Positions 1,426 through 37,680 of a stretch of 45,126 nucleotides of DNA are shown here, piece by piece (within the stretch, counting starts at the first letter, position 1; every line of letters starts with the position of its first letter). The stretch comes from an uncultured bacterium (GTDB lineage: Bacteria; Verrucomicrobiota; Kiritimatiellia; RFP12; UBA1067). Location of the stretch: contig CACZHC010000052.1 of assembly GCA_902780865.1 (NCBI GenBank), forward strand, positions 1-45,126. The letters run 5' to 3'. Made by a program: the position numbers and the translations under genes. The notes under the pieces were generated by a model that saw only the letters and a program-made list of their open reading frames with translations, was not told where the DNA came from and searched no databases.

Positions 1426-1456
1426 TTTTCGTAGTACATTTTCAAGGAGAAAGAAC

Positions 1457-4400: not shown

Positions 4401-4825
4401 GCGTCAAGTTCAAGGCAGACGAGCCGTGGTCGCTCTTCGACCACCAGATGTGGTTCTGCCCGATGCTGAAGGACAAGAACGTGTTCTGCGGCTACTGGAG
4501 CAACTGCGCGGGACAGAAGGTCTACAAGAAGTCCGGCGAGGATGTAAACGCCAAGTGGACTGGAAACGCATCAAAGAGCGTGCCTGATGGTTCACGCTCC
4601 GGCCTCGTAAAGACGCCGCGCGGCTATCGCGCCGAGATGTTCATTCCTGCCGAGCAGCTCAAGGGCTGGGACAAGATGAAGCCCGGCGCCACGATAGGTC
4701 TTTCGTTCACGCTCGTCGTCGAGGATCTCAAGAACTCGCAGCATGAGCTCTACTGGCCTAACTCCAAGCGCGACAACCTCATGAAGAAGCCGTGGACTTG
4801 GGCAAAGGTCAAGCTCGAGAAGTAA
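1457..4825 (+). CDS. Large secreted clan GH-A-like glycoside hydrolase with C-terminal CBM9/DOMON-like domain
   Basis: A 1122-residue exported protein. The N-terminus has a signal peptide (hydrophobic run, likely cleavage after TYA near residue 21). A jelly-roll-like N-terminal region is followed by a TIM-barrel section with two candidate catalytic glutamates in clan GH-A positions: Glu431 in FELDNEVDG (acid/base) and Glu545 in VTEWGWDT (nucleophile). This resembles GH39- or GH5-type barrels; I cannot assign the family. Then comes an alpha-galactosidase-associated NEW3-like beta domain (around residues 790-880) and a C-terminal domain (FDGDLSDW..., about 910-1120) like the CBM9/DOMON-like carbohydrate-binding fold. 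The ATG at 1457 is picked because it has AAGGAG at 1444-1449 and directly precedes the signal peptide. Six bases separate it from the downstream fucosidase, so the two are co-transcribed and probably act on the same glycan. The exact substrate cannot be read from sequence. Confidence 0.78.
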   Translation: MNCRLFGLSAIAAMASFVTYADLVSRDIGDPEMNAWEAGTWVTCGGDVITLDERPSDAPTKAKSVRFETRYGDHVFGGWNASLKKNILPGKPVKFTGWARLGNDDSWGMEFAFVDAHTNNFSISMHPVGDPKGKFQLTRNWQKFEMTFPETVGKNKEPIALPVKFDCVKQNNWGDRNSPPKTRQFDLYDFRLWTDMAGVTDRPYELSVRYPVVGNTFYDAEGEPAVIISAGSWIGEENTLTFKANVVSATGEERKFEIPPLKVLDGASQIVKLPFDEPGAYKVEIAVDGFPKPFVEKSRYVVCLHPRDLTDEEKEASPYGINVHGGGYVGYEKFARLGFTWVRDYAYNFHWMRRARGDGKYAGWPWYPKIVKAAEDVGIKTLPCLMGAVEIKRDATGDNDPSYTPNKEWRRQMALAVSTFDTLTAFELDNEVDGLMFKTLDGYGRYCQAFGDIVKAARPDARAVAPGLAGIYVEQSQKLVEKGYFRNIDVVNGHRYCGKDGPEYSKANLNTGMSEAKPAYLRDVWRHWKKAATCDGKFRELWVTEWGWDTLAGQPVSEWEQAAYLQRKWVLAMGNGVEKMFWYWYYDDDTDTPNYFFAGCGIFDRRRNPKPSAASFAAMRTFIPGKYEYIGTANLGPNHMVQLVRAEGKVVALAYKVRKDGPDLEIKDEKAKLITDMFGRTLKPTGTFGKRKLDIAPTWYVGLDEDSDWLKQCPLDIESDFYVRNVGGEPVRVEVAQPDKFEYSVEPPKGWTVEKKPYGFDVMGPAGLKRGNTSFTVTGKNGKVSKTMAIEVDIVPQAYAKSKAANFDGEFTMDVTNQSAEDQNFAVKAELPDGWAIDPAVTQTGKLKPEETKTLSFKLVKSAPVDPAAKGAANPKLSIVNAKGMQVDYAPVIPRTWTMRSVDLKKIKFDGDLSDWDDRNLVNSFMIGPNGDKDPTKVYLAYCPEGLVAALDVDDSRCFTADPGSFWRAADCLEIMITTPDGVKFKADEPWSLFDHQMWFCPMLKDKNVFCGYWSNCAGQKVYKKSGEDVNAKWTGNASKSVPDGSRSGLVKTPRGYRAEMFIPAEQLKGWDKMKPGATIGLSFTLVVEDLKNSQHELYWPNSKRDNLMKKPWTWAKVKLEK

Positions 4826-4831
4826 AAAGAC

Positions 4832-6787
4832 ATGCGCAAGGCACTTCTTGTTTTTTCGGTCGCCGCCGTGGCAGAGCTCGCCTTGGCCGGCGTTGTTCTC
4901 GAAAAACCATCGTCGGTTTCCCGGACGGATGACGGATGGCGTATCGTCTATGCGCTCGGCGAGCCGGTGAAAGCCGATTTCTTCGCACTGGAGAACAATC
5001 CTGCCGGGGCGTGGAAACTTACGGTTGACTCGTGGGAGTTCGCGCGCGGGGAGGGTCTGTGCAAGAATCTTGTCACGAATCTGCCGAAGGCCGTGTTCGC
5101 TTCGCGCTTCCAGTTTGAAGTCAAAGGCGACGCCGACCCGAAGATGGGCGGTCTTGCGCTCGAGCTCCGGCCGCGCGCAGAAACGGAAATACGCAAGGCG
5201 ATGAATGGCCGACTGCCGCAGCGCCTCGAGAAAAAGTCCGATCGCATCTTTGCAGATTTCGGCGGCGAGACGGCTGTGCGCGGCGTTTTTGTGCCGGCCG
5301 GCAAGACTGCCGAAGTCTACGGGTCGTGGTCGCCTTCGCTTGCCGACGGCGGCCTTGGCTCGCCGATTCTCGCCTCGCGTTCGGAGAAGGATGGACGCCT
5401 CTACATCGAGTTCCACGACGTCCAGAGGTTCTGCTACTTCGCCGTGACGGGCGTTGACGCGCCGAAAGACATTGAGTTCGACATCGTGCCCTACGACTAC
5501 GCGAAGCACCTGACGAACGAGACGTGGGAGCAGAAGCTCGCGCGCATGAAGTGGTGGACGGATGCGCGATTCGGCATGTTCATCCACTTCGGGCTCTACG
5601 CCGTTCCCGCGCGACACGAGTGGGTGAAGTCGAACGAGCGCATTGGCGACGAGCAGTACCGCGAGTACTTCGAGACGTTCAATCCGTCTCGCTTCGACGC
5701 CAAGGCGTGGGCAAAGGCCGCGAAGAACGCGGGCATGAAGTACGCTGTCCTCACCTCGCGCCACCACGAGGGCTTCTCGCTCTTCGACACGAAGTTCTCC
5801 GACTACAAGATCACAAATACGCCGTTCGGCCGCGACCTCGTCAAGGAGTTTGTCGACGCTTTCCGCGCCGAGGGGCTGAAGGTCGGATTCTACTACTCCC
5901 TGCTCGACTGGCATCATCCCGACTACACGATCGACAAGATGCATCCGCGTCGCAAGAACCCCGAAAAGTTCGGCGCAGGCGGGGAGAACTTCGACTACGC
6001 GAAGGAGAACGAGGGCCGCGACATGGCGAAGTACCGCCAGTTCATGAAGAACCAAGTGACGGAGCTTCTTACGAACTACGGCAAGATCGACATAATCTGG
6101 TTTGACTTCTCCTTCCCCGGGAAGAACGGCAAGGACCGCCACGACTGGGATTCCGAAGGTCTCGTTCGCCTTGCGAAGAAGCTTCAGCCAGAGATCATCA
6201 TCGACAACCGCCTCGACCTCACGGATTGGGAGGACGGCTGGGATTTCGCGACGCCCGAGCAGAGCAGGCCGGCAGGATGCGTTGAGGTGAACGGCAGGAA
6301 AGTCCCATGGGAGACGTGCCAGACGTTCTCCGGCAGCTGGGGCTATGCGCGCGACGAGTCGAGCTGGAAGAGCGCCTACCAGTGCATCGAGCAGCTGATC
6401 GACGCCGTTTCCAAGGGCGGCAACGTCATCATGAACGTCGGGCCGATGGCGACGGGCGAGTTCGACTACCGCGCTCTCGAGCGTCTTGCGGACTACGGCA
6501 AGTGGCTTAGGGTCAACGGAGAGTCAATCTACGGTTGTGGTCCCGCGCCCGAGGAGTTCACGCCGCTTCCAGGGACGACGCTGACCTACAACCCCAAGAC
6601 GAACCGCCTTTACATGCACATGCTCTCCTGGCGGTTTGGCACGTTCCAGGTCCCGTTCGGCGAGCGCGTGAAGTGCTGTCGGCTGCTGAACGACGGAAGT
6701 GAACTCAGGTTCCGCTGGAACACTCTTCATCTTCCCGTCGAGAAGCCGCCGGTGGAGATACCGGTTGTGGAATTCATCTTAAAATAG
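4832..6787 (+). CDS. Secreted GH29 alpha-L-fucosidase with extra N-terminal domain
   Basis: A 651-residue enzyme predicted to release terminal alpha-L-fucose. A signal peptide ends near residue 19 (ALA). About 210 residues of beta-rich N-terminal domain precede the GH29 barrel, which starts at KWWTDARFGMFIHFG; most GH29 enzymes begin their barrel close to the mature N-terminus, so this addition is notable. Family motifs follow: LTSRHHEGFSLF, FYYSLLDWHHPDY and IIWFDFSF, where Asp425 is the expected nucleophile. The late GGNVIMNVGPMATGEF segment is typical of the family. It is the second of three closely spaced genes for secreted proteins. Two other GH29 barrels lie at 30179 and 31369. Confidence 0.92.
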   Translation: MRKALLVFSVAAVAELALAGVVLEKPSSVSRTDDGWRIVYALGEPVKADFFALENNPAGAWKLTVDSWEFARGEGLCKNLVTNLPKAVFASRFQFEVKGDADPKMGGLALELRPRAETEIRKAMNGRLPQRLEKKSDRIFADFGGETAVRGVFVPAGKTAEVYGSWSPSLADGGLGSPILASRSEKDGRLYIEFHDVQRFCYFAVTGVDAPKDIEFDIVPYDYAKHLTNETWEQKLARMKWWTDARFGMFIHFGLYAVPARHEWVKSNERIGDEQYREYFETFNPSRFDAKAWAKAAKNAGMKYAVLTSRHHEGFSLFDTKFSDYKITNTPFGRDLVKEFVDAFRAEGLKVGFYYSLLDWHHPDYTIDKMHPRRKNPEKFGAGGENFDYAKENEGRDMAKYRQFMKNQVTELLTNYGKIDIIWFDFSFPGKNGKDRHDWDSEGLVRLAKKLQPEIIIDNRLDLTDWEDGWDFATPEQSRPAGCVEVNGRKVPWETCQTFSGSWGYARDESSWKSAYQCIEQLIDAVSKGGNVIMNVGPMATGEFDYRALERLADYGKWLRVNGESIYGCGPAPEEFTPLPGTTLTYNPKTNRLYMHMLSWRFGTFQVPFGERVKCCRLLNDGSELRFRWNTLHLPVEKPPVEIPVVEFILK

Positions 6788-6803
6788 ACAAGGAGGAAAT
6801 AAA

Positions 6804-9161
6804 ATGGACATGGTAACACTGCTGCTTGCGGCTACAATCGCATTGCCGCCATTTGGAGACGTAAAGGTAGTCGACGAAATCGACTGCACCAAGGCGGATC
6901 ACCGCTTCGCGGACTGGCCGAAGGGCTCAAGCCGCGTGGAGAATGTCCTCGGCAAACCCTGCCGTGTTCTCGACGTGCAGTCAGAAACGGCGTCCTACCT
7001 AGACTGGCGCCTTGGCGAGGGCAAGGGGCTCAAGCCAAACGCCGCATACGTCGTCGTGATCGAGTATCCCGACGACAAGCCGCGCGCGTTCCATGTCCGC
7101 AACTACGGCAACAACTCGCGTCGTTCGTTCTACACCGGGCGTTCCAACGGCGACGCCTTTGAGGGGCCTATCGTCCACCACAAGCCAGAGTCGCTGAACA
7201 TTCCGCAGTCCGGCAAGTACGAGAAGTGGACGTCGCTCACCTTCCTCGGCGAAAAGGCCGCGAACCGCCGCGATCTCGGGAAGGACATGGCCGCGAAGAC
7301 CGGCGAGAAGCCGCAGCTCGACATTGCGACCGACGGCTTCGAAGTCGCGATCTCACAGTATAAGCGTCAGTGGCATCCCTGCTCCGAGGGAATTGCCGTC
7401 TCGCGCATCCAGCTCTGCGAGATTCTCGACGAGAAGGCGGCGTGGGTTTCGCTTAACCTGCCGCCAGCGCCGCTGCCGCGTCGCCACATTTTCTGGCGCG
7501 AGGAGATGAGCGACGGGGTCATGGCCAAGGACAGCCTCTGCCCTGGCAACGGCGGTCTCGACTGGATCGAGCAGAAGTTCCGCGCGATGAAGATTTTCGG
7601 TCAGAACACCTACTGCAAGGACCTCCTCGAGTTCGGCCACAACCAGCACTGGGACTGCCACTGGAAGCACGGCAAGCCGGGCGGAAAATCGTTCAAGTGG
7701 ATGTGGGCGTGCGACGCCTACTATGCCGATCTCTGGACGAAGATCGTCTCGCTTGCCGTGGAGAAGTATGGATTTGACCTCCTTCCCTACTACGAGTACG
7801 GCGGGGCGGCCGGTGATCCCAAGGAGGCGCTCGGCCCCCAGAAGCGCGCCGAACCGCTCGACATCGACAACAAGCCCGACCGCAAGGCGCGGGGCGCGAA
7901 CTATACGCACATCTGGTGGTCCGAGGGCAAGCTTCGCGTCGACATCACCGACCCTGACACTCTTGAAGAGCTCAAGTACATACTCGAGGGCACGATACTC
8001 CGCTACAAGGACCTGGTCGACAAGGGCGCTTTCGTCGGCGCGTTGATGCGCCCGCGTCCAGGCCACTGGGCAATCAGCTTCTCCGACAAGACGCGTGCAA
8101 GGTTCGCCAAGGAGGAGAACGGCGGCCAGGCCGTCTCACGCCAGGACCTCAAGAAGAACCGCGCACTCTACGACAAGTACATCGCCTGGTACGGCAAGAA
8201 GCGCGCGCAGTTCATGGACGAAATCCGCAAGTATCTCGAGGAGAACGGCGTCAAGAACGCGATCTCCATCCTCGAGAACGACGATTCCGAGACCGGCTAT
8301 CCCCTTGCCGACGGCGGCAGCATGACGACCGACGATCTCGCCTACTGGAAGGAGAAGCTTCCCGGCAAGAAGATTGTCGACGTCAACGATCCGAGCGTCG
8401 TCGGGCAGCATCGCTACCTCAAGGCGCTTAAGACCCCGGCCGGCACATGGGGTCCGTGGGAATGGCAGCATGCCTCGCCAGCCTGCGACCCAGAGCACTA
8501 CCACGACCTCAAGAACGTCTGGATAGCGCTGCCGTTCCATGCTTTCTTCACCGTGACCGATCCCGAGTGCCTCTCCGCGTTTGCAAACGGCAACGGCACG
8601 GCGACGCTTATCCGCCACTACGACCTCAACGAAGGCACCTTCGACAGCGAGCCGCTTCTCGACCCTAACGGCAATCCAGTCAAGAACGGGAAGGGCGAAG
8701 TCGAGAAGAGGCCAATCACCGGCTACGCGATGGCCGACTGGGAACACGCAGGACGCGCCTGCATGATCGCCGAGATCAACGCGATGGCGAACGGCGACCC
8801 CGTGAACCTCGGCTACCTGATGGGTTCCAACTACACTCGCGGCTTCCCCGGACCGGTCAGGGAATTCAACCAGAACTTCCTTGCGCTTCCTGCGCTTCCC
8901 TCGAAGGTTGTGAAGGGCGCATGCTCCGACCCCGAGGTGGTCCTGCGCGAGATCGACTGCTCGAAGCTTGGAGTCAAGGCGAAGTACTATGCGCTCGTCC
9001 ACACCGGCTGGAAGGAGAAGAGCGACATCAAGGTCACGATTCCCGGCGCAAAGAGCGAAGTCGAGTTCGTCGCATACGGCAAGACACGTACCGTGAAGAA
9101 TGGCGTTCTTGCGTTCAAGACGCTGAAGCCGCTCCAGCTCATTGCGATCAAGGCGAAGTAG
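6804..9161 (+). CDS. Large secreted protein of unknown function in glycan operon
   Basis: A 785-residue protein I do not recognise. AGGAGG at 6791-6796 lies seven bases before the ATG at 6804. A short hydrophobic N-terminus (LLLAATIALP) looks like a signal peptide. The first 200 residues are beta-rich and could be a carbohydrate-binding module. The middle is rich in aromatic and acidic residues (HIFWREEMSDG, GQNTYCKDLLEFGHNQHWDCHW, LLPYYEYGG, ISILENDDSETGYP, WEWQHASPACDPEHYHD), as in a TIM-barrel glycosidase, ending in a small beta domain. The gene starts 16 bases after the GH29 stop, so it is co-transcribed with two glycan-degrading enzymes. A role in binding or cleaving the same glycan is inference from that context. 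Confidence 0.7.
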   Translation: MDMVTLLLAATIALPPFGDVKVVDEIDCTKADHRFADWPKGSSRVENVLGKPCRVLDVQSETASYLDWRLGEGKGLKPNAAYVVVIEYPDDKPRAFHVRNYGNNSRRSFYTGRSNGDAFEGPIVHHKPESLNIPQSGKYEKWTSLTFLGEKAANRRDLGKDMAAKTGEKPQLDIATDGFEVAISQYKRQWHPCSEGIAVSRIQLCEILDEKAAWVSLNLPPAPLPRRHIFWREEMSDGVMAKDSLCPGNGGLDWIEQKFRAMKIFGQNTYCKDLLEFGHNQHWDCHWKHGKPGGKSFKWMWACDAYYADLWTKIVSLAVEKYGFDLLPYYEYGGAAGDPKEALGPQKRAEPLDIDNKPDRKARGANYTHIWWSEGKLRVDITDPDTLEELKYILEGTILRYKDLVDKGAFVGALMRPRPGHWAISFSDKTRARFAKEENGGQAVSRQDLKKNRALYDKYIAWYGKKRAQFMDEIRKYLEENGVKNAISILENDDSETGYPLADGGSMTTDDLAYWKEKLPGKKIVDVNDPSVVGQHRYLKALKTPAGTWGPWEWQHASPACDPEHYHDLKNVWIALPFHAFFTVTDPECLSAFANGNGTATLIRHYDLNEGTFDSEPLLDPNGNPVKNGKGEVEKRPITGYAMADWEHAGRACMIAEINAMANGDPVNLGYLMGSNYTRGFPGPVREFNQNFLALPALPSKVVKGACSDPEVVLREIDCSKLGVKAKYYALVHTGWKEKSDIKVTIPGAKSEVEFVAYGKTRTVKNGVLAFKTLKPLQLIAIKAK

Positions 9162-9225: not shown

Positions 9226-9657
9226 ATGGCGGCTACGCGCAGACAGGCCCGCGAATGGGCGATTCAGATGCTGACGGCGGCGGATCTAAATCCGCCGGAC
9301 GACGTCGGGCAGTTCATGGTTTCCTTCTGGGAAGAGCTTTCCTCTCTCGACAGCGAAGAGGGGAGAGCCAGTCCCAAGGGTGAGATGAAGGATTTCGCTG
9401 AAGCGCGCGTAGTTGGCGTCCTTGCTAACCAAAAGGAGATAGACGAGATACTTGTCCCGCTTCTTGCGAAATGGGATCTCTACCGCCTCGGCACAATAGA
9501 ACGCGCCGTCCTCAGGATGGGCGTATGGGAAATGAAGTGGTCGGACGTCCCGAAGCCCGTCGTCATCAACGAGGCGATCGACCTTGCCAACTGGTTCTCT
9601 ACCCCCAAGTCGAGGACGCTTATCAATGCAGTCCTCGACAAGTACGCGAAGGGTTAG
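9226..9657 (+). CDS. nusB: Transcription antitermination factor NusB
   Basis: A 143-residue all-helical RNA-binding protein that works with NusE (S10) on boxA RNA to prevent premature termination in rRNA operons. The N-terminal RRQAREWAIQML helix, the LVPLLAKWDLYRLGTIERAVLRMGVWEM core and the NEAIDLANWF segment are typical; length fits the family. The ATG at 9226 is preferred over an upstream in-frame codon because the latter overlaps the promoter. Linkage to rib genes is common in other bacteria, often with ribH, but here ribD and ribE follow directly. Confidence 0.93.
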   Translation: MAATRRQAREWAIQMLTAADLNPPDDVGQFMVSFWEELSSLDSEEGRASPKGEMKDFAEARVVGVLANQKEIDEILVPLLAKWDLYRLGTIERAVLRMGVWEMKWSDVPKPVVINEAIDLANWFSTPKSRTLINAVLDKYAKG

Positions 9658-9746
9658 GAGTTGGAGTTCAGAGTTGGAGTTGGAGAGTGGAGGATTAGGA
9701 GTTAGGGGTCAGGAGTCAGTACGCAGTAGTTAGGAGTTTGGAGATT
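9655..9746 (+). repeat. G-rich degenerate GGAGTT-type spacer between nusB and ribD
   Basis: The 92-base interval is almost devoid of C and is built of degenerate GGAGTT / GGAGTCAG / TTAGGAG phrases. It holds several AGGAG cores, the last at 9732-9736 acting as the likely ribosome-binding site of ribD. No FMN riboswitch consensus is recognisable. Confidence 0.7.
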
Positions 9747-16597: not shown

Positions 16598-16606
16598 TGG
16601 TATAAT
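16598..16606 (+). promoter_or_regulatory. Extended -10 promoter of the alkaline phosphatase operon, leaderless geometry
   Basis: TGGTATAAT ends six bases before the ATG at 16613. An ATGACC at 16578-16583 with a 17-base spacer is a weak -35 candidate. The six-base interval leaves no room for a ribosome-binding site. Confidence 0.72.
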
Positions 16607-16612
16607 ATCTCC

Positions 16613-18019
16613 ATGAAAAAGTTACTTTTCCTGGCCATCGCGGCCATTGCGGTGTCTGCATTTGCGGATAGGCCCAAGTATGTGTTTCTATTCATCGGCG
16701 ACGGGATGTCCGTTCCCCAGCGCATGACGGCCGAGGAGTTCTCTCGCAAGAGCGGCGCCGGTCCCCTTGCGATGAATGCGATGCCGTTCAGCGCGATGAC
16801 GCGCACCTGCTCGGCTGACTCGCTCGTGACCGACTCCGCGGCGGCGGCAACGGCGATCGCCTGCGGCACGAAGACTAAGAACCACTACTCCGGCGTCGAT
16901 CCAGAGGGGAAGCCGCTCTTCTCTTCCGCCGCGGCGGCGAAGAAGGCGGGTGTCAAAGTCGGCATTGTGACGACTGTGACGATCACGCACGCGACGCCGG
17001 CCGGCTTCTACGCCCACCGCAACAACCGCGGCGACGCCTACGGCATCTCCCTTGACCTCGCCGACTCCGGCTTTGACTTCTTCGCGGGCGGCGGTCTCGA
17101 CGTCAATGCAAAGAACACGCTGAAGCACAAGCAGTACGAGGAGTTCGGCGATGCCTACGAGTATGTCCGCTCCAAGGGCTACAAGATCGTCGAGACAAAG
17201 GACCAGTTCCTCGCGCTCAAGCCCGGCGACGGCAAGGTGTTCACCAAGTTCACGAACGGCGCTCTCGATTCGACGATCGACGCCGACGGCACCCAGCCGA
17301 CACTCGCCGAGATGGTCGCGAAGGCGACCGAGATGCTCGACGGCGAGAGCGGCTTTTTTATCATGGCCGAGGGCGGTCGCATAGACTGGGCTGGCCACGG
17401 CAACGACGCGGCGACGAATCTCCGCGACGTCCTTGCGCTTGACGAGGCGGTCAAGGTCGCGATTGAATTCCAGAACAGGCATCCCGACGACACGCTCGTC
17501 GTCGTTACGGGCGACCACGAGACCGGCGGCATGTCGATGGGCTTTGCAGGAACTGGATACGCACTCTACATGGATCGCCTCGCCAACCAGACCATGTCCG
17601 TCGGCAAGTTCGGCGACAAGGTCAATGCCGCGTTCAAGGCCAATCCCAATCTCTCGTTCGATGACGTCAAGCCGATCATTGTCGAGGCGTTTGGCTTCAA
17701 GTTCGAGGGCGACGCCAAGAAGGACGGCATGGTGCTTACCGAAACCGAGCTGAAGGGCATTGTCGAGGCGTTCAACCACGACGTCGAGTTCCACAAGTCC
17801 AAAATCGAGGAGAACTCGCAGTACGACGGCGAGAAGCGCTATCTCCTCGGCGGCGAGTGCCGCATCGTGATGTCGCACAAGTGCGGCATCGGCTGGAGCT
17901 CGGGCGCACACACCGCAATGCCAGTTCTCACGACCGCAAAGGGCCGTTGCGCCGAGAAATTCTCCGGATTCATCGAGAACACCGACATCGCGAAGGTAAT
18001 GAAGGCGTTCTACGAATGA
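16613..18019 (+). CDS. Secreted alkaline phosphatase (PhoA superfamily)
   Basis: A 468-residue exported phosphomonoesterase. A signal peptide ends near residue 18 (AFA). The first metal aspartate is in FLFIGDGMS, the nucleophile is Ser75 in the VTDSAAAATA motif, and further metal ligands lie in HATPAGFYAH, AEGGRIDWAGHGND, VVTGDHETGGM and the late SSGAHT histidine. Phosphate scavenging outside the cytoplasm is the family role; a different phospho-substrate cannot be excluded. It is the first gene of a tight four-gene operon: the next ATG overlaps its stop codon. Confidence 0.93.
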   Translation: MKKLLFLAIAAIAVSAFADRPKYVFLFIGDGMSVPQRMTAEEFSRKSGAGPLAMNAMPFSAMTRTCSADSLVTDSAAAATAIACGTKTKNHYSGVDPEGKPLFSSAAAAKKAGVKVGIVTTVTITHATPAGFYAHRNNRGDAYGISLDLADSGFDFFAGGGLDVNAKNTLKHKQYEEFGDAYEYVRSKGYKIVETKDQFLALKPGDGKVFTKFTNGALDSTIDADGTQPTLAEMVAKATEMLDGESGFFIMAEGGRIDWAGHGNDAATNLRDVLALDEAVKVAIEFQNRHPDDTLVVVTGDHETGGMSMGFAGTGYALYMDRLANQTMSVGKFGDKVNAAFKANPNLSFDDVKPIIVEAFGFKFEGDAKKDGMVLTETELKGIVEAFNHDVEFHKSKIEENSQYDGEKRYLLGGECRIVMSHKCGIGWSSGAHTAMPVLTTAKGRCAEKFSGFIENTDIAKVMKAFYE

Positions 18020-28964: not shown

Positions 28965-30047
28965 CTATTCGTCACCATGCAGGTGGCGTCTGCGCCACGC
29001 ACGCATGGTCGTGCCCATGCGCCTCTTGAAGTCGTGCATGAGATGCGTCTCTGAACGCCACCCGCAGAGGTTTGCGATCGGGCCGATTGCCTGGTGCGGG
29101 TCGCGCAGCAATTCGAGAACCTTTGCATAGCGCGCCGTCTTTATCTCCCCCGCAACCGTCTTCCCCTGCCGGCGGAATGCCTCTGCAAGCCGCGTATGCG
29201 ACACGCCGAGCTCGTGCGCAAGAGTGACGACGTCGAGCCGTACCGCGTCAGACCGTATGAGGTCGGTCGCCCGGCGGAAAAGAAGCATCTGCTGAAGCGT
29301 AGCGGCGGCGAGAAAACCAGCACCCGAGAAGTTCGGCTCTACAGTCGCTATTGGCGGACGCGTGTGTCCGCATAGGAGCTCGTCGTTGTCGATGCCGAGG
29401 ACCGAGAGCCGGTCTGGAACTACAATGCCGCGTTCCGCACATGTTTCGACGACGAGAAGCGCCGTCAGGTCGTTCGCTGCGAGCACACCCGTAGGCGAAG
29501 GAAGTGCGGCAAGCCACGACGCAAGCTGCCTGCGCGTGCGGCCGCCGAAGACCGAACCTTGAAGGCGACGCTTGGCGACTATCGAAAGAAAGGCGTTTTC
29601 GCGCGAGACCGACCAGGGCTCGCGCGACGGGTCGGGAACGAACGCTACGCCCGCGCCAGGCATGATGCGCTCGAAATGATCGAGCGCCGCAGCGACAATG
29701 GCAGGAGTGTCGAATCGGACATAGGCAAAGTTGGACGCGCGACGTCCTGGGCCGTGGTCGTCAAGCACGACCACTGGTCGATGCGACTTGGCAAGCAGGT
29801 CGAGCGCCGCTTTCTGGCGGCCTTCCGCTGCGACGCTCAAAAGAAAGCCCTCCGTGCCGTCGGCGAGCGCCTTTCTTACCGTCTCGGCGTTCAACTCGGA
29901 GGCAGAGCGGACGATCTGGACATCCCAGACATGCCCTGCGTCGAGAAAACTGAGAATTCCTGCGAGGTGTTCGCGACCGGCCTTGCCTTCGAGCTTCGGC
30001 GACAGAAAAACCTTGCGAACTTTATTGCTGGCGGATGATCGCTTCAT
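28965..30047 (-). CDS. AraC-family regulator with LacI-like sugar-sensing domain (XylR type)
   Basis: A 360-residue transcription regulator. Residues about 10-260 resemble a periplasmic-binding/LacI sensor (RPVVVLDDHG, VAFVPDPSREPWSVSRENAF, GVLAANDLTALLVVETCAERGIVVPDRLSVLGIDND). The last 100 residues carry an AraC double helix-turn-helix (VTLAHELGVSHTRLAEAFRR and IGPIANLCGWRSETHLMHDFKRRMG). It is divergent from the fucosidase at 30179 and next to fucI, so it most likely controls this fucose locus, with fucose or a related sugar as ligand (inference). The start is set at 30047, six bases downstream of a TGGTATAAT box; the longer open frame upstream overlaps the intergenic region and lacks homology. 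Confidence 0.9.
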   Translation of the reverse strand: MKRSSASNKVRKVFLSPKLEGKAGREHLAGILSFLDAGHVWDVQIVRSASELNAETVRKALADGTEGFLLSVAAEGRQKAALDLLAKSHRPVVVLDDHGPGRRASNFAYVRFDTPAIVAAALDHFERIMPGAGVAFVPDPSREPWSVSRENAFLSIVAKRRLQGSVFGGRTRRQLASWLAALPSPTGVLAANDLTALLVVETCAERGIVVPDRLSVLGIDNDELLCGHTRPPIATVEPNFSGAGFLAAATLQQMLLFRRATDLIRSDAVRLDVVTLAHELGVSHTRLAEAFRRQGKTVAGEIKTARYAKVLELLRDPHQAIGPIANLCGWRSETHLMHDFKRRMGTTMRAWRRRHLHGDE

Positions 30048-30053
30048 GGCGCG

Positions 30054-30062
30054 ATTATACCA
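30054..30062 (-). promoter_or_regulatory. Extended -10 promoter of the AraC-type regulator, leaderless geometry
   Basis: Read on the minus strand: TGGTATAAT, then six bases (CGCGCC), then the ATG at 30047. No Shine-Dalgarno sequence is possible. Confidence 0.7.
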
Positions 30063-30097
30063 TAACTTAAGGTGGTTGTGTCTGAAAACGCAGTTAT
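30062..30097. promoter_or_regulatory. Candidate operator in the regulator/fucosidase divergent region
   Basis: ATAACT at 30062-30067 and AGTTAT at 30092-30097 form a perfect 6-bp inverted repeat beside the regulator promoter in a 131-base divergent intergenic region that is noticeably A/T-rich. It is a weak candidate for a binding site of the divergent regulator. Confidence 0.25.
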
Positions 30098-30134
30098 TTT
30101 CTGTATGAATAAATAGTTTCTTGCGGTTCGTTTT

Positions 30135-30143
30135 TGGTACAAT
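30135..30143 (+). promoter_or_regulatory. Extended -10 promoter of the fucosidase operon
   Basis: TGGTACAAT differs by one base from the box used elsewhere in the window. A leader of about 30 bases follows with AAGGAG at 30165-30170, eight bases before the ATG at 30179. The weaker -10 is consistent with a regulated promoter. Confidence 0.6.
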
Positions 30144-30178
30144 CAACCCAAAATCAAATACTGCAAGGAGAATATACG

Positions 30179-31360
30179 ATGAAAAAAGCCATTGCCGCCG
30201 TCGCCCTCGCCGCCACAGCCGCGCTTTACGCCGACTACACACCGGAAAAATGGAATCTCGAGGCCCGCGACAAGTTCGCCGCGCAGCGCTTCGGGATCTT
30301 CATCCACTGGGGGCTCTACGCCAACTACGCCCAGGGTGAATGGTACCAGCAGCAGAACGGCATCAAGACCGAGACCTACGGACGCATGATGGACGGTTTC
30401 TGTCCGTCGAAGTTCGACGCGAAGGAGTGGGTGCGAGTCTTCAAGGACGCGGGCGCAAAGTACGTGACGATCACCTCGCGCCACCACGACGGCTTTTCGC
30501 TCTGGCCGACAAAGGTCGACGACGGCTACAACATCGCCAACACTCCCTTCAAGCGCGACATCCTCGGCGAGCTTTCGAAGGCATGCGACGAGGCGGGGCT
30601 GCAGCTCAACTTCTACTACTCGCTCATGGACTGGCACAGGAAGGACTATCCGGCCGGGACTGCCGCCGTCAAGTGCCTTGGTTCGCAGAAGGGCGACTAC
30701 GAATCATACAAGAAGTTCATGCTTGGCCAGATCGGCGAGCTCATCGACAGCTACCACCCGGGCAACATCTGGTTCGACGGCGAGTGGGAGCATGCGCACC
30801 ACCAGAACGACGGCACATGGAAGCGCACGCTTGACTGGGACTTCGACACGATCTACGACTTCATCCACTCGAAGAAGACGCTTGTCGCGAACAACAACCA
30901 CCAGCCGATTCGTCCGAAGGAGGACATCCAGCTCTTCGAGCGCGATCTCCCCGGCGACAATTCCGACGCCGGCTTCTCGAAGAACCAGCCCGTTGCGCAC
31001 GACCGCCCCGTGGAGCAGTGCGACGTCATCCAGAAGAACGTCTGGGGCTACAGGATCGCCGAGCGCAGCTTCCGCACGCCGGAGGAGGTCTGCGCGATGA
31101 TCTGCCGCTGCGCGGCGAAGGACTCGAACCTCCTCATGAACATCGGGCCCGACGGCTCCGGCCGCCTTCCGGCGCGCGCGGTCGAGGTGATGGCCGAGGT
31201 CGGCAAGTGGATGCGCGAGAACGACGGCACGCGCGGCGTCGGTCTTGTCAAGAATCCCGATGGATCAGAGACCGGCAAGACTAAGAAGGGCGATGTCGTC
31301 TACGAAATCACGATCCCGAAGGGCGCAAAAGGCTTCCCGACGGTGAAGAAATCCGAATAA
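30179..31360 (+). CDS. Secreted GH29 alpha-L-fucosidase
   Basis: A 393-residue exported fucosidase made up almost only of the GH29 barrel. A signal peptide ends near residue 18 (ALYA). Motifs: RFGIFIHWGLYANYAQGEWY, ITSRHHDGFSLWPT, LNFYYSLMDWHRKDY, GNIWFDGEWEH with nucleophile Asp200, NNNHQP, and LLMNIGPDGSG. The ATG at 30179 has a good AAGGAG site and starts the signal peptide. It is the first gene of the rightward fucose operon. The compact architecture contrasts with the GH29 at 4832. Confidence 0.94.
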   Translation: MKKAIAAVALAATAALYADYTPEKWNLEARDKFAAQRFGIFIHWGLYANYAQGEWYQQQNGIKTETYGRMMDGFCPSKFDAKEWVRVFKDAGAKYVTITSRHHDGFSLWPTKVDDGYNIANTPFKRDILGELSKACDEAGLQLNFYYSLMDWHRKDYPAGTAAVKCLGSQKGDYESYKKFMLGQIGELIDSYHPGNIWFDGEWEHAHHQNDGTWKRTLDWDFDTIYDFIHSKKTLVANNNHQPIRPKEDIQLFERDLPGDNSDAGFSKNQPVAHDRPVEQCDVIQKNVWGYRIAERSFRTPEEVCAMICRCAAKDSNLLMNIGPDGSGRLPARAVEVMAEVGKWMRENDGTRGVGLVKNPDGSETGKTKKGDVVYEITIPKGAKGFPTVKKSE

Positions 31361-31368
31361 GTGATTCC

Positions 31369-33654
31369 ATGGGAAACACCAGAATACATTTGTTGTTGGC
31401 GACCGTTGCGGCGCTTGTGTCGGCATCATGTCCAGCCGTGTCGGTCGTCGTAGATTTGCCGTCTCCGAAACCCGGCCCTGCGCTGGCCGCGCGCATCGCG
31501 GCGGGCGACTGCGAGGTCTACGGAATCGTCCACTGGGGTCTTAACACCTATACCGACCGCGAATGGGGCTATGGCAACGAGGATCCGGCACGGCTGAATC
31601 CCACGAAGTTCGACGCCGACCAGATTGTCGGCGCGTGCAAGGCGGGCGGGCTTGGCGGGCTCATTGTTGTCGCAAAGCATCATGACGGCTTCTGCCTCTG
31701 GCCGACGAAGACGACGGAGTACAACATCTCGAAGTCTCCGTTCCGCGGCGGGAAGGGCGACTATGTCCGTGAAATGGAGCAGGCGTGCCGCAAGGCGAGG
31801 CTGAAGTTCGGCGTTTACATTTCCCCGTGGGACCGACATGACGCGGACTATGCGACACCCACGTACGTAGAAAAATACCATGCCCAGATCAAGGAACTCC
31901 TGTCCGGCGACTACGGCAAAATATTCGAGATGTGGTTCGACGGCGCGAACGGCGGCGACGGCTGGTACGGCGGCGCGAACGAGCGCCGCACGATCGGCGG
32001 CGACTACTATCGCTTCCCCGAAGTGTTTAAGTTCGTGCGCGAGCTTCAGCCGATGGTCTGCATCTTCGCGGGCGAGTCGGACGCGTCTGACTTCCGCTGG
32101 CCCGGTAACGAGAGGGGTGTTCTGGATCCTGATTCCGGCGCGACGATCTGCTCGACTGGTGGGTTTGCGGGCGGCAAGTTCGGTAATCCGGAATATATGC
32201 CGCACATCAACACCGGAATGCGCGCTGCCGAAAACAGCAGTTCGAAGAGCTTCTTCCGCGTTTGCGAATGCGACTTCCCGATGCGCCCGGGATGGTTCTA
32301 CCACGAAAAGGACCGCGGCCGGACGAAGAGCGCCGCCTACCTCATGCAGCGCTATCTGAACACCGTCGGCAATGGCGGTACGATGAACATCGGCATTGCG
32401 CCGAACAAGGACGGGAGGCTCGACGCGGAGGATGTGAAGGCTCTCAAGGGGTTTAAAGAGCTTAAGGACGCGTTCTTCGCGAAGCAGGTCTACGGCTCGG
32501 CGCGTGCCAACGTGGTGGTGCTATGGGAAACCGTCAACCAACACGGCGAGCTCGCGCCGGGCTGGAAGCTTGTGCGGAGGGCTCAGGCGGGGGCCTCCGC
32601 TTCCGGGGAAGTTCCGCTCGCGTCGGGCAAGGTAATTGGAGTCAAGCGCATCCGCATCCTCCCCGAGAGCGTGCCCGAGGATGAAATCAAGCTTGCGCGT
32701 CCGACCGAGGCGGACTTCGCCGAACCCCCGCCGCAGGACTACTCCATCCTGGCGCGCCATTACTACACCGACCCCGAGCTCATCCAGCTCATCATGTCCG
32801 CAACGACCGAGTCCGGCGAAACGGACACCGCGAAGTGGATGACGGCCGGAAAGCAGGGCGCGGCGGATTATGCCATTGGCGACGTCGCCCAAAAGATCGC
32901 CGCCGCGAAGAAGGTGCTTCGCAGCGACACATGGTATGGCTACAAGCGGACGGTGTTCGACTTCGAGGGGCACGAGGCCTGGGTCGTGTCGCCGAAATGC
33001 GAACCTGCCGCGGGACTTCCTTGGACATGGACGATGCAGTGGGCCGAGGCGTATGTGGACAGGACGGGTGTTCTCGACCTTCTCGCGAAAGGCTGGCATC
33101 ATGTGACAATTGACACGTTCCAACACAGAATGGACGAAGAGGGACTTCGCGTAAGCCGCGCGTTTCAGAAGTTTCTTGTCGAGGAGATCGGCTTCGCGCC
33201 AAAGGCATGCCTCGTGGGGATGAGCTGGGGCGGATTCTTCTCGACGCGCTATGCCGCCACATTCCCCGAGTGCGTCGGAAAGATTTACCTCGACGCGCCG
33301 CTCATGAACTTCGATGGCTTCGCCAAGGTCGGCGGCACGCCGACCGAGAATGCGGCGCGAATCGGGCCCTGGGCGAACATGCCGCCCGCAGACGGCAACT
33401 GGTCCACCGATCCCAGGATGCCGGTAAACATGGCTGATCGGCTCGCGAAGGCGGGCATCCCGATTCTGCTTCTGTACGGCGGCCAAGACGCAACCGTGCC
33501 TCCAGCCAAGAACTGCGAACTGTTCACCGAAAGATTCAAGGCGGCAGGCGGCAAGATCGACATCCGCCACCGTGGGCTCTACGGCCACCATCCGCACGGC
33601 GAGGACCCCGACAAGACGTCCAGCATCGTCTCCTTCTTTGAAGCCAAGAAATAG
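31369..33654 (+). CDS. Secreted GH29 fucosidase fused to an alpha/beta-hydrolase (esterase-like) domain
   Basis: A 761-residue two-domain protein. A signal peptide-like N-terminus precedes a divergent GH29 barrel (about residues 40-370) with YGIVHWGLNTYTDREWGYG, VVAKHHDGFCLWPT, FGVYISPWDRH and FEMWFDGANGG, where Asp191 is the expected nucleophile. A beta-rich connector follows (about 380-450). The C-terminal domain (about 490-761) has an alpha/beta-hydrolase triad: Ser619 in GMSWGG, Asp707 in LLYGGQDATVP and a histidine at 740-743 in GLYGHHPHG. Such a pair could remove ester groups and fucose from the same decorated glycan. The ATG at 31369 is eight bases from the upstream stop with no clear ribosome-binding site, suggesting translational coupling. 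Confidence 0.88.
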   Translation: MGNTRIHLLLATVAALVSASCPAVSVVVDLPSPKPGPALAARIAAGDCEVYGIVHWGLNTYTDREWGYGNEDPARLNPTKFDADQIVGACKAGGLGGLIVVAKHHDGFCLWPTKTTEYNISKSPFRGGKGDYVREMEQACRKARLKFGVYISPWDRHDADYATPTYVEKYHAQIKELLSGDYGKIFEMWFDGANGGDGWYGGANERRTIGGDYYRFPEVFKFVRELQPMVCIFAGESDASDFRWPGNERGVLDPDSGATICSTGGFAGGKFGNPEYMPHINTGMRAAENSSSKSFFRVCECDFPMRPGWFYHEKDRGRTKSAAYLMQRYLNTVGNGGTMNIGIAPNKDGRLDAEDVKALKGFKELKDAFFAKQVYGSARANVVVLWETVNQHGELAPGWKLVRRAQAGASASGEVPLASGKVIGVKRIRILPESVPEDEIKLARPTEADFAEPPPQDYSILARHYYTDPELIQLIMSATTESGETDTAKWMTAGKQGAADYAIGDVAQKIAAAKKVLRSDTWYGYKRTVFDFEGHEAWVVSPKCEPAAGLPWTWTMQWAEAYVDRTGVLDLLAKGWHHVTIDTFQHRMDEEGLRVSRAFQKFLVEEIGFAPKACLVGMSWGGFFSTRYAATFPECVGKIYLDAPLMNFDGFAKVGGTPTENAARIGPWANMPPADGNWSTDPRMPVNMADRLAKAGIPILLLYGGQDATVPPAKNCELFTERFKAAGGKIDIRHRGLYGHHPHGEDPDKTSSIVSFFEAKK

Positions 33655-33672: not shown

Positions 33673-35757
33673 ATGAAAATACATCCCAAGCATATTGTCG
33701 CGCTTGCTGTACTTGCGGCAGGGATAGTTTCTGGCGCAGCGCCTAAGGAGATGACGGTTGCGACGGACGGGATGTCGCCGAATGACGCGCTCCTGTCCAT
33801 CCGGGCGGCGAAGGGAAAGGGCGACTGGAGCTCCTGGACTGTGCATGTGAAGCCCGGCGTATATGTTCTGAAGGAACCGCTTGTGTTCACGCCGGCGGAC
33901 TCTGGAACGCCCGATGCGCCCGTGCGCTGGGTCGGGGATGGTGGCGAGGCTGTGTTTTCCGGCGGCGAACCGCTCTCGGACTGGCGCGACGAAGGCAATG
34001 GCGTCTGGTCCGCGCCGATTCCGAAGACACCGTCTGACGAAAGGGCTTGCTTCGAACAGCTCTGGGTGAACGGAAGAAGGGCGGATCGTGCGCGGCTTCC
34101 AAACGGCGATTCCGCGAATCCCATCGCCGGATGCCTTCGCATTGCGAATGCATCGATAACGCCCGTCAAGGATGCGGCGGGCAAGACGACTTACATCGAA
34201 CACGTAACGCCGTCCAATGCCGCAGCGCTTGCCACGATGCAAGCGGACAAAATGCCGTGGGCGCAGATGTGCGTCGTTCACAAATGGGCCTTCTCGCGGC
34301 GGGTGATAAAGTCAATCGATCCCGCCACCGGCACGGTCGAGACGCATTCCCCGGTGAACTGGGACGGCTGGAAGAAATGGAATTCACAGGAGACGCTCGT
34401 CTGGTTCGAGAACGTGCGCGGCGGATTTGACGCGCCCGGCGAATGGTTCTACGACGGGAAGAACGGACGCATCCTCTACCGTCCGCTTCCAGGAGAGAAG
34501 ATCGAGTCGGTCGTGGCATTCGCCCCCAGCTCCAAGCTGAGCCGGCTCGTGGAGATAAAAGGCGATCCCGACAAGAAGGAGCTTGTTCACGATATTCTGT
34601 TCAGCAACCTTGTGTTCGCCGTGACGGACGGCTGGGGCGAAGGGCGGGAGAACAACCGTCCGACACAGTCGTACCAGCATCAGGCCGCTTTTTCAAACGA
34701 CGGCGCCATTACAGCGACTGGGGCCCACCGCCTCGCGTGGGACCGCTGCGTGTTCCGTCACACCGGCAACTACGCGCTCAGGTTCAACGACGGGTGTGTT
34801 TCAAACACGGTCGCGCGCTGTCTCATGGAGGACCTTGGCGCCGGCGGCGTGATCATGGGCTCATGGGCCGGACATGTTGCTGACGGCGAGACGCTTTCCC
34901 GGCGCGTCATATCCAAGACGGCGCCGCATTCCGTCGCGTTCAACCGCATCGAGGACTGCATCATACGCGGCGGCGGACGTTTCAATCCCGAAGCAACGGG
35001 AATTGTCTTTACCCACGTCTCAGACTCGAAGGTGCTTCACTGCGACATATACGACTTCTTCTATTCGGGAGTCTCGGTCGGATGGACGTGGGGGTTCCGC
35101 GGCTCGGTCGCACAGCGCAACGAGATTGCGTACAACAGGATATACGACCTTGGGAAAGGCGTCATGAGCGATATGGGCGGTGTCTATACGCTCGGCACCA
35201 GCTTCGGGACTACGGTTCACGACAACGTCATCCACGATGTGAACAGCTATTCATACGGCGGATGGGGCATCTACTTCGACGAGGGAAGCGAAGGGGTTGT
35301 CGCGGAGCGCAACCTCTGCTGGAATACGACCGACGGGGGCTTTCACCAGCATTACGGCACAGGCTGCATAGTGAGAAACAACATCTTCGCCTGGAACCGC
35401 ACCCGAGGAGCTGTCAGGATGGAGCGAGCGGTCGTGCAGGACGTTCCATGCACGCTTAACTTCCTGAACAACATCGTGATCGTGAAGGGGAGCCCTCTCG
35501 CCGGACGCGGCGTGCGCAACGTCGGCGACATCTGGGCAGGAAACCTGTGGTACGACTTTTCGGGCAAGCCCGATTTCGACGGTCTCGACTGGAACGGATG
35601 GGTCGCGAGCGGGAAGGAAATTCTCGGAAAGTACGCCGACCCGCAATTCGAGAATCCCGAAGCCTTCGACTTCCGGCTCAAGCCGTCCTCCCCGGCCTTC
35701 GCGCTCGGTTTCAAACCGTGGGACAGCTCAAAGGCGGGCTCATCAGGCAGGCAATAA
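33673..35757 (+). CDS. Secreted right-handed beta-helix protein, GH141-like
   Basis: A 694-residue exported protein with a signal peptide (likely cleavage after SGA, residue 22). The first 130 residues match the entry region of beta-helix glycosidases (KPGVYVLKEPLVFTPADSG, AVFSGGEPLSDW, LWVNGRRADRARLP). The body has parallel beta-helix coils, with repeated Asn/Val-rich turns such as NRIEDCIIRGGG, VLHCDIYDFFYSGV, NRIYDLGKGVMSDMGG and GGWGIYFDEGS. GH141, whose founding member is an alpha-L-fucosidase, has this layout, and the neighbours are fucosidases. A polysaccharide lyase or epimerase using the same fold is the main alternative. I did not identify catalytic residues with certainty. Confidence 0.75.
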   Translation: MKIHPKHIVALAVLAAGIVSGAAPKEMTVATDGMSPNDALLSIRAAKGKGDWSSWTVHVKPGVYVLKEPLVFTPADSGTPDAPVRWVGDGGEAVFSGGEPLSDWRDEGNGVWSAPIPKTPSDERACFEQLWVNGRRADRARLPNGDSANPIAGCLRIANASITPVKDAAGKTTYIEHVTPSNAAALATMQADKMPWAQMCVVHKWAFSRRVIKSIDPATGTVETHSPVNWDGWKKWNSQETLVWFENVRGGFDAPGEWFYDGKNGRILYRPLPGEKIESVVAFAPSSKLSRLVEIKGDPDKKELVHDILFSNLVFAVTDGWGEGRENNRPTQSYQHQAAFSNDGAITATGAHRLAWDRCVFRHTGNYALRFNDGCVSNTVARCLMEDLGAGGVIMGSWAGHVADGETLSRRVISKTAPHSVAFNRIEDCIIRGGGRFNPEATGIVFTHVSDSKVLHCDIYDFFYSGVSVGWTWGFRGSVAQRNEIAYNRIYDLGKGVMSDMGGVYTLGTSFGTTVHDNVIHDVNSYSYGGWGIYFDEGSEGVVAERNLCWNTTDGGFHQHYGTGCIVRNNIFAWNRTRGAVRMERAVVQDVPCTLNFLNNIVIVKGSPLAGRGVRNVGDIWAGNLWYDFSGKPDFDGLDWNGWVASGKEILGKYADPQFENPEAFDFRLKPSSPAFALGFKPWDSSKAGSSGRQ

Positions 35758-35796: not shown

Positions 35797-37680
35797 ATGA
35801 ACCAGACAGTGTTTACGCACAACCCGTTTCCAAAGGTGGGCATTCGCCCGATCATCGACGGCCGCAGGCGCGGAGTCCGCGAGTCGCTCGAAGACCAGAC
35901 GATGGCGATGGCCAAGGCAGCCGCGAAGCTGATCTCCGACAATCTCCGCTATCCCGACGGCTCAAAGGTTGAGTGCGTTATCGCAGACACGACGATCGGC
36001 GGCAGGTTCGAGGCCGCGCAGTGCGCAAACAAGTTCGCCGCGAACAACGTCGGCGTTTCGCTCTCCGTGACGCCTTGCTGGTGCTACGGAACGGAGACGA
36101 TGGACCTCGACCCCGTGATGCCAAAGGCCGTGTGGGGCTTCAACGGAACGGAGCGCCCGGGAGCCGTCTATCTCGCATGCATGCTCGCAGGATACGCGCA
36201 GCGCGGGATGCCGGCGTACGGAATCTACGGACACGAGGTGCAGAACCGCGACGAGTCCGACAAGATCCCCGCCGACGTCGCCGAGAAGATCCTCCGCTTC
36301 GCGAAGGCGGGGCTCGCCGTCGCGATGATGAAGGGCAAGAGCTACCTCTCGATCGGAACTTCCGCGATGGGCATCGCGGGCTCGTTCGTCGACGTCAACT
36401 TCATGCAGGACTATCTCGGCATCGCGCCGGAGAACATGGACGAGTGCGAGATTCTCCGCCGCATCGAGGAAGGCATCTACGACAAGGAAGAGTACAAGAA
36501 GGCGCTCGCGTGGATGAAGAAGAACCTCAAGGAAGGGAAGGACTACAATCCGCCAAAGATCCAGAAGTCGCGCGAGGCGAAGGACAAGGACTGGGAGTTC
36601 ATCGCGAAGATGGCGATAATCGTCCGCGACATGATGGCCGGCAATCCCAAGCTCAAGGAGATGGGCTTCGGCGAGGAGGCGGTCGGCAGGAACGCGATCG
36701 CAGGCGGCTTCCAGGGCCAGCGTCAGTGGACTGACCACTGGCCGAACGGCGACGTCGCGGAGGTGATGTGCAACACTTCGTTCGACTGGAACGGCAAGAA
36801 GATGCCGCAGATCCTCGCGACGGAGAACGACTCGCTCAACGGCATCTGCATGCTTCTCATGTGGCTCCTCACCAACAAGGCGTCGATGTTCGCCGACGTT
36901 CGCACCTACTGGAGCGACGCGGCCGTGAAGCGCGCGACGGGGAAGGGCCTTCCGAAGGAGGCGAAGGCGGGCATCATCCATCTTCTCAACTCCGGATCCT
37001 GCTGTCTCGACGCGGCGGGCGAGATGAAGGAGAAGGGGAAGCCGGTCTTCAAGAACTGGTGGGACGTGACGCAGAAGGACATCGACGCGACCTTGAAGGC
37101 GACGAAGTGGGTTCCGGCTGGAGTCGAATACTTCCGCGGCGGCGGCTTCTCGTCGTCGTTCCTTACGCCAAAAGGCATGCCTCTCACGATGATCCGCATC
37201 TCCATCGTGAAAGGCCAGGGGCCTGTTCTTCAGATTGCAGAGGGCTATTCCGTCACTCTCGATCCGAAGCAACAAAAGACGCTTATGGAGCGTACGAACC
37301 CCGAATGGCCCTGCACCTGGTTTACGCCGCGTCTCACTGGGAAGGGCTTCTTCAAGGACGTCTACTCGGTGATGAACGCATGGGCGGCGAACCACGGCGC
37401 GATCGCGTACGGACACATCGGCGCGGACCTCATCACGCTCGCCTCGATGCTCCGCATTCCGGTCGCCATGCACAACGTTCCGGAGGAGAAGGTCTTCCAG
37501 CCGCACTGCTGGGGGCTCTTCGGCGCGTCGGACGATCCGACTGGCGCAGACTACCGCGCCTGCGCGGGCGGAGCGAGTTTCGGCTTAGGGCTCGCTAGCA
37601 TTGCCTATGCTGTGCTAACTTGCCTGACATCGTGCGGCTTGCTTCGCCGCAACGGGCGGCGCGGCGATTTTCCGCCCTAA
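35797..37680 (+). CDS. fucI: L-fucose isomerase with an abnormal C-terminal tail
   Basis: A 627-residue cytoplasmic enzyme converting L-fucose to L-fuculose. Recognisable parts: [81 protein letters not shown] (with candidate Mn2+-binding Glu and Asp) and [31 protein letters not shown] about eight bases upstream of the ATG is the ribosome-binding site. Family members normally end about ten residues after the DYRAC motif with a GPLYK-like tail. Here DYRAC is followed by about 42 unrelated residues (hydrophobic, then Arg-rich) encoded by an inverted-repeat element whose right arm supplies the stop codon. Whether the enzyme still works is open. It is the last gene of the fucose operon; fucK and fucA are not in the window. 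Confidence 0.93.

Follow-up and report, generated by a model that had tools for sequence, protein, structure and literature searches.

An exported GH29-B fucosidase joined to an unassigned serine alpha/beta-hydrolase in a Kiritimatiellia fucose operon

What does a bacterium do with an exported protein that joins a fucosidase to a serine hydrolase, and do the two domains act on the same substrate? This question is raised by a gene in a 45,126-nucleotide stretch of DNA (the window) from an uncultured member of the Kiritimatiellia. The gene belongs to a 3.36-Mb genome bin to which Kiritimatiellae assemblies from rumen and gut are closely related, and the features on which the analysis rests are collected in Table 1.

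A two-domain exported protein beside fucose genes

The gene is a single open reading frame with an ATG start and no internal stop codon, and its 761-aa product matched two Pfam models above their curated cut-offs, Alpha_L_fucos at residues 58-362 (E 3.7e-30) and Abhydrolase_1 at residues 569-648 (E 3.3e-10). The AlphaFold model of the whole protein (mean pLDDT 87.7, pTM 0.65) comprises two confident domains separated by a low-confidence linker that looks flexible. A sequence-only reading had described one exported polypeptide uniting a GH29 domain with an alpha/beta-hydrolase, and this fusion in one predicted exported protein is confirmed by the reading frame, the Pfam matches, the two modelled domains and its recurrence in four other assemblies (L034, L035, L036 and L038, of which the L036 contig ends within the hydrolase and L038 is cut within GH29). 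Given this recurrence, the fusion is neither a chance event nor a single assembly error. Because Cys21 is absent from some sister proteins, the protein is probably not a lipoprotein.

Table 1. Features of the fusion gene and its operon (positions in the window).
Feature	Position	Strand	Basis
Divergent regulator, LacI-like sensor and AraC-type HTH, start approximate	28965..30242	-	Pfam
Plain GH29-A fucosidase, upstream, same operon	30179..31360	+	Pfam
GH29-B / alpha/beta-hydrolase fusion gene, 761 aa	31369..33654	+	ORF, Pfam, AlphaFold
N-terminal export signal, residues ~1-25, boundary approximate	31369..31443	+	Read from sequence; sister N-termini compared
GH29-B catalytic barrel, residues 45-372	31501..32484	+	Pfam, sequence and structure matches, dN/dS
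Asp191, catalytic nucleophile (= Asp172 of 3UES)	31939..31941	+	Alignment
Glu248, acid/base (= Glu217 of 3UES)	32110..32112	+	Alignment
GH29 C-terminal beta-sandwich, residues 373-470, mosaic between sister species	32485..32778	+	AlphaFold, sister comparison
Conserved GH29-B tail 'SATTESGETDTAKWMTAGK', residues 477-495, attachment point of C-terminal partners	32797..32853	+	Sister alignments
Low-confidence interdomain linker, residues 481-504	32809..32880	+	AlphaFold
Alpha/beta-hydrolase module, residues 506-761	32884..33651	+	Pfam, model, structure search
PWTWTMQWA motif, residues 551-559, nearly invariant	33019..33045	+	Homologue alignment
Ser619, predicted nucleophile, G-M-S-W-G elbow after strand	33223..33225	+	Alignment, model
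Asp707, predicted triad acid	33487..33489	+	Alignment, model
His740, most likely triad histidine	33586..33588	+	Alignment with 4X00
GH141-like beta-helix protein, downstream (GH141_M just above cut-off)	33673..35757	+	Pfam
L-fucose isomerase FucI	35797..37680	+	Pfam, NCBIfam

The GH29 part is of the canonical GH29-B type by sequence, catalytic residues and fold. It scored 106 bits against PF01120 (cut-off 25.2), and a sequence search returned the GH29-B enzymes 8AYR (E 4e-86), 5K9H, 4ZRX and 3UES. Asp191, already picked out from the sequence, aligns with the nucleophile of 3UES and, like Glu248, is kept in every one of the 46 GH29-B sequences aligned; the equivalent pair in 3UES is the one mutated in 3UET, according to the title of that structure. 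The model superimposes on 8AYR with a Z of 45.3 and 1.9 A over 408 residues at 34% identity, so the earlier description of the barrel as divergent does not hold, and its Z to 3UES is 41 as against approximately 31-33 to structures of the GH29-A type. The enzymes 3UES (B. longum subsp. infantis), 8AYR (Akkermansia muciniphila) and 5K9H (a rumen bacterium) are GH29-B alpha-1,3/4-L-fucosidases that have in common with the fusion protein a barrel and beta-sandwich with Asp and Glu at the same positions (Z 41-45); unlike them, the fusion protein carries a serine alpha/beta-hydrolase C-terminal to GH29.

The genes for GH29-A, the fusion, the GH141-like protein and FucI follow one another on the same strand, 8-39 bp apart. 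The fusion gene starts 8 bp past GH29-A, and its placement between a plain GH29 and a GH141-like protein, as previously reported, is now seen to lie ahead of an L-fucose isomerase gene, fucI, the second gene downstream. At L035 and L007 the fusion is immediately upstream of fucI. Closely related GH29-B genes without the hydrolase module occupy the same operon slot at L037 and L039, which indicates that the hydrolase is not essential to the fucosidase. At L058, a stand-alone hydrolase with its own export signal (317 aa stop-to-stop, 90% identical) lies between a divergent regulator (63% identical) and fucI (97% identical), and the interval also holds an IS200-like transposase-type ORF.

Two other features of the window concern fucose genes. 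The fucI frame runs here to residue 627, whereas matches to relatives end at residue 591, and in two relatives similarity extends beyond an in-frame stop, which suggests that the usual stop codon has been lost at 37570-37680. Elsewhere, two ORFs without Pfam matches (1346-4825, 1159 aa; 6804-9161, 785 aa) flank another GH29 gene (4832-6787), and the genes across 1346-9161 may form a second fucose-related cluster.

Both domains of the fusion are conserved among its relatives. Against sister genes, the GH29 barrel gave a dN/dS of about 0.08-0.16 and the hydrolase one of 0.07-0.14, or 0.18 when the latter was compared with stand-alone L058, and these low values indicate purifying selection that keeps both domains functional. 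A search of viral contigs found no relative.

The hydrolase module

A fold search with the full model gave GH29 structures only. For this reason a separate model of the hydrolase was used as the query, and no one class stood out. Residues 501-761 were predicted to adopt an alpha/beta-hydrolase fold (pLDDT 91.3, pTM 0.91), and this modelled fold, the GxSxG elbow and the order of Asp followed by His place the module in the alpha/beta-hydrolase superfamily. The full triad proposed from the sequence, Ser619/Asp707/His740-743, is upheld in that all 49 homologous hydrolase domains compared keep Ser619, Asp707, His740, His741 and His743. Of the three histidines, His740 is the best candidate for the triad, since the Gly-His of 4X00 aligns to it. 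The position of the PWTWTMQWA motif suggests that it forms the oxyanion-hole loop.

Searches of NCBIfam and PDB sequences for a specific name gave generic matches only, sub-threshold in the case of NCBIfam; the best PDB match to the hydrolase profile (E 1.3e-5) was among generic hydrolases, and divergent family members used as extra queries added no specific name. At E<=0.01, the fusion protein matched neither the CE7 model PF05448 (AXE1), the CE15 model PF22244 nor the CE1 model PF00756. Some homologues gave weak, near-cut-off CE1 matches, the AXE1 match of L160 falls in a separate domain outside the module, and the CE15 matches of L109 and L152 fall in the N-terminal partner. The module thus resembles multi-domain esterases of the CE1, CE7 and CE15 types in its serine alpha/beta-hydrolase fold, its export and its frequent fusion to carbohydrate enzymes, but differs from CE7 (AXE1) and CE15 (GCE_fung) in leaving their Pfam models unmatched and in having its own PWTWTMQWA and GHHPHG motifs. 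As no named family or solved structure is close, we treat the module as an unassigned serine hydrolase for which the term esterase comes from context. Judged by its partners and neighbours, its most likely role is to take an O-acyl group off a polysaccharide, and acetyl is the simplest guess for that group.

Spread of the module and exchange of partners

A profile search (E <= 1e-30) detected the hydrolase module in 136 of 387 Verrucomicrobiota genomes, either alone, in copies of ~280-330 aa, or fused to other domains. GH5-like domains are the most frequent partner among the proteins sampled, and further partners include BD-FAE, alkaline phosphatase, CE15, tannase/feruloyl esterase, CE7 and SGNH/GDSL domains; fusions to GH5-like, CE15, CE7, SGNH, tannase and BD-FAE partners imply that the family is not specific to fucosides. 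The neighbours of the stand-alone copies point to no single substrate, with rhamnosidases, GH88, GH67-type and GH2 enzymes among them, and such copies also adjoin genes for tRNA synthetases, SecY and other housekeeping functions.

Fucosidases of other types also carry the module, which is fused to GH29-A at L031 and L085 and occurs with GH29, CBM32-type and SGNH domains in a 1088-aa frame at L083 (5992-9255). The GH29 domains of these three proteins are 24-35% identical to the GH29-B described here, as compared with 62-69% for the hydrolase, and the pairings with GH29-A, in L083 and with GH29-B are best read as separate events. In a tree of 92 modules, a quick method counted at least 26 architecture changes under the labels used. 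The 761-aa protein groups with L034, L035, L038 and L058 on a branch with 98% support, and the GH29-A and L083 fusions join it in a wider 14-row group (support 95) in which other architectures are intermixed.

Other arrangements were observed in the course of this survey. The L083 frame amounts to one fucosidase with two esterase-type domains, and at L059 (5152-7413) a PF02230 esterase-type hydrolase lies N-terminal to GH29-B, giving a second type of fusion between an esterase-type domain and a fucosidase. Exported proteins that combine an SGNH esterase with the hydrolase module recur in genomes of other Verrucomicrobiota families (L144-L150, L162), with a second SGNH domain in L144. The genome of the fusion itself contains a decayed stand-alone hydrolase copy (G000:C15 ~16600-16790; L164 ~1490-1720, minus strand), in which the export signal and first strands are followed by the HHPHG C-terminus, as would be expected after a large internal deletion.

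Comparison of closely related loci shows how such changes occur. L058 and L035 align across the upstream region, the export signal and the sequence PKPGPALAARI (L058 5755-6020) and then jump to the hydrolase (L058 6013-6758 versus L035 3263-4008); the two L058 matches overlap by 8 bp and the match offsets differ by 1,440 nt (480 codons), so that GH29 was lost or gained exactly in frame. L034 and L039 share 99% DNA identity across 1,065 bp of GH29-B and have different C-terminal partners: GH29-B runs on into the hydrolase in L034, and the same tail, 'TAKWMTAGKQGA', is followed in L039 by in-frame GH141-like sequence to the end of the contig. The beta-sandwich is likewise exchanged, being 29-40% identical to that of the fusion protein in L034, L035, L036, L038 and L039 and 85% identical in L037, with better conserved flanks (80-93% identity). 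The tree of the GH29 barrels rejects a single origin of the fused state followed by vertical inheritance (AU p 7e-5).

An extra open frame was present on 23 of 45 GH29-B homologues with near-complete barrels, or approximately half (our protein included), counting at least 150 aa on the C side or at least 250 aa on the N side; the loci were picked by similarity and not at random, frames were taken stop-to-stop and some contigs end early, so this fraction is indicative. Pfam distinguished at least ten kinds of partner, among them GH97, beta-helix/GH120-like, GH16, FAD oxidoreductase, GH123, GH106 and GH78 domains as well as GH2, BNR sialidase, nucleoside hydrolase, tyrosine-phosphatase-type and PF02230 esterase-type domains. 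As controls, 17 of 17 close GH29-A orthologues (402-476 aa) and 24 of 26 near-full-length FucI orthologues (584-709 aa) are in frames of single-domain length, and the idea that all genes of the operon are prone to fusion is therefore unsupported. The gene neighbourhood swaps enzyme domains unusually often. The multi-catalytic glycoside hydrolases of Caldicellulosiruptor are also domain-shuffled, their catalytic modules having been rearranged into new orders within one genomic locus; here, unlike in that system, the domain at the centre of the shuffling is a fucosidase from rumen Kiritimatiellae, and the partners are mainly exo-acting glycoside hydrolases and esterases.

Two sequence elements of GH29-B genes deserve mention. 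The tail 'GETDTAKWM' (32797-32853) is present in ~42 of 46 aligned GH29-B sequences and is among the best conserved parts outside the barrel; it is predicted at pLDDT <40 although conserved, and marks where C-terminal partners attach. Tandem heptamer repeats (GGAGTCA- or GGGGAAC-like) occur inside the GH29 coding sequence of L034 (7413-7547), L036 (7495-7608) and L037 (7395-7508), at a loop equivalent to residues 124-131, where a 7-bp change in copy number would shift the frame. L035 has a different, partly palindromic insert at this loop, and the 761-aa gene has no heptamer array there; the window does carry a GTTAGGA array between genes, at 9653-9743.

What the two domains may do together

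The reading to which we give slightly better than even chances is that of a secreted two-enzyme protein, in which a GH29-B fucosidase and a serine carbohydrate esterase act on the same fucosylated glycan. A retaining alpha-L-fucosidase, with Asp191 as nucleophile and Glu248 as acid/base, would be tethered by a flexible linker to the esterase, where Ser619 would attack, with His740 and Asp707 as the relay, and take an O-acyl group, most simply acetyl, off the same fucosylated glycan. Deacylation would give the barrel access to the fucoside or clear away a neighbouring decoration, and the released fucose would pass to FucI. We infer the ester hydrolysis, the acyl group and the action on the same glycan from several lines of evidence: the invariant active-site sets, the low dN/dS, the recurrence of the fusion, the nearby fucI and the L058 copy, the association of the module with GH29-A (L031, L085) and with GH29 and CBM32 (L083), the PF02230-GH29-B protein of L059, and partners elsewhere that are largely carbohydrate esterases (CE15, CE7, tannase/feruloyl, BD-FAE, SGNH) and glycoside hydrolases. 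Against it count the distance to any solved relative, the tie between S9 and esterase neighbours, the common non-fucose partners and the dispensability of the module.

The module may instead be a general carbohydrate esterase that frequent exchange of modules has brought to this GH29 and that works by itself on different acyl groups in the same plant or host material, with the fusion providing co-secretion and not coupled chemistry on fucose; we hold this to be possible, at appreciably less than even chances. Its many non-fucose partners favour such a generic role, since a wide range of unrelated exported enzymes carry the module, and so do the sampled GH29-B homologues, about half of which bear some partner, the non-clonal presence of the hydrolase on closely related barrels (the AU test above) and a linker that looks flexible in the model. 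However, three different GH29 types carry the module and its closest stand-alone copy adjoins fucI, and this near-identical copy together with the separate fusions favours fucose as the acyl site.

It is quite unlikely that the C-terminal domain is a serine hydrolase other than an esterase, such as an S9-type peptidase or acylaminoacyl hydrolase. VIA-align placed S9 peptidase chains level with esterases, including esterase D, as structural neighbours of the hydrolase model (Z 18-20), and the first Foldseek match was a putative DPP IV; but identities are only 10-19%, Pfam Peptidase_S9 was unmatched in the fusion protein at E<=0.01, the N-terminal beta-propeller of the S9 type is absent, its place being taken by the GH29 barrel, stand-alone copies are too short at ~280-330 aa, and carbohydrate enzymes predominate among the partners and neighbours. 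That the fusion arose as an artefact when the metagenomes were assembled is barely credible, for although all sequences derive from metagenome-assembled genomes and GH29-B copies are alike enough to confuse assemblers, the identical in-frame junction occurs in five assemblies, with hydrolases that diverge from that of the window by 7-12% in amino-acid sequence, and a chimera needs shared sequence at the join, where fused and stand-alone forms differ before the hydrolase except for 8 bp.

The esterase-fucosidase reading can be carried further, to a new carbohydrate-esterase family together with a combinatorial system in rumen Kiritimatiellae, in which GH29-B barrels gain and lose catalytic partners in frame at their 'GETDTAKWM' tails from one close relative to the next and the present branch is tuned to acylated fucosides, a wider proposal that we consider doubtful. 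GH29 enzymes, alpha/beta-hydrolases and multi-catalytic carbohydrate enzymes are already known. The fusion might have been widely characterised already; a search of open-access papers, covering part of the literature, returned no described GH29-esterase fusion, and this weakly suggests that the combination, the promiscuous unassigned hydrolase and the speed of in-frame exchange are new.

If the activity is as proposed, the protein would be a one-protein answer to acyl-blocked fucosides, and the hydrolase would offer a way into an uncharacterised esterase family found in about one-third of the Verrucomicrobiota genomes searched. The rapid exchange of partners also provides natural matched pairs of fused and unfused enzymes at high identity, with which the gain from enzyme fusion could be tested.
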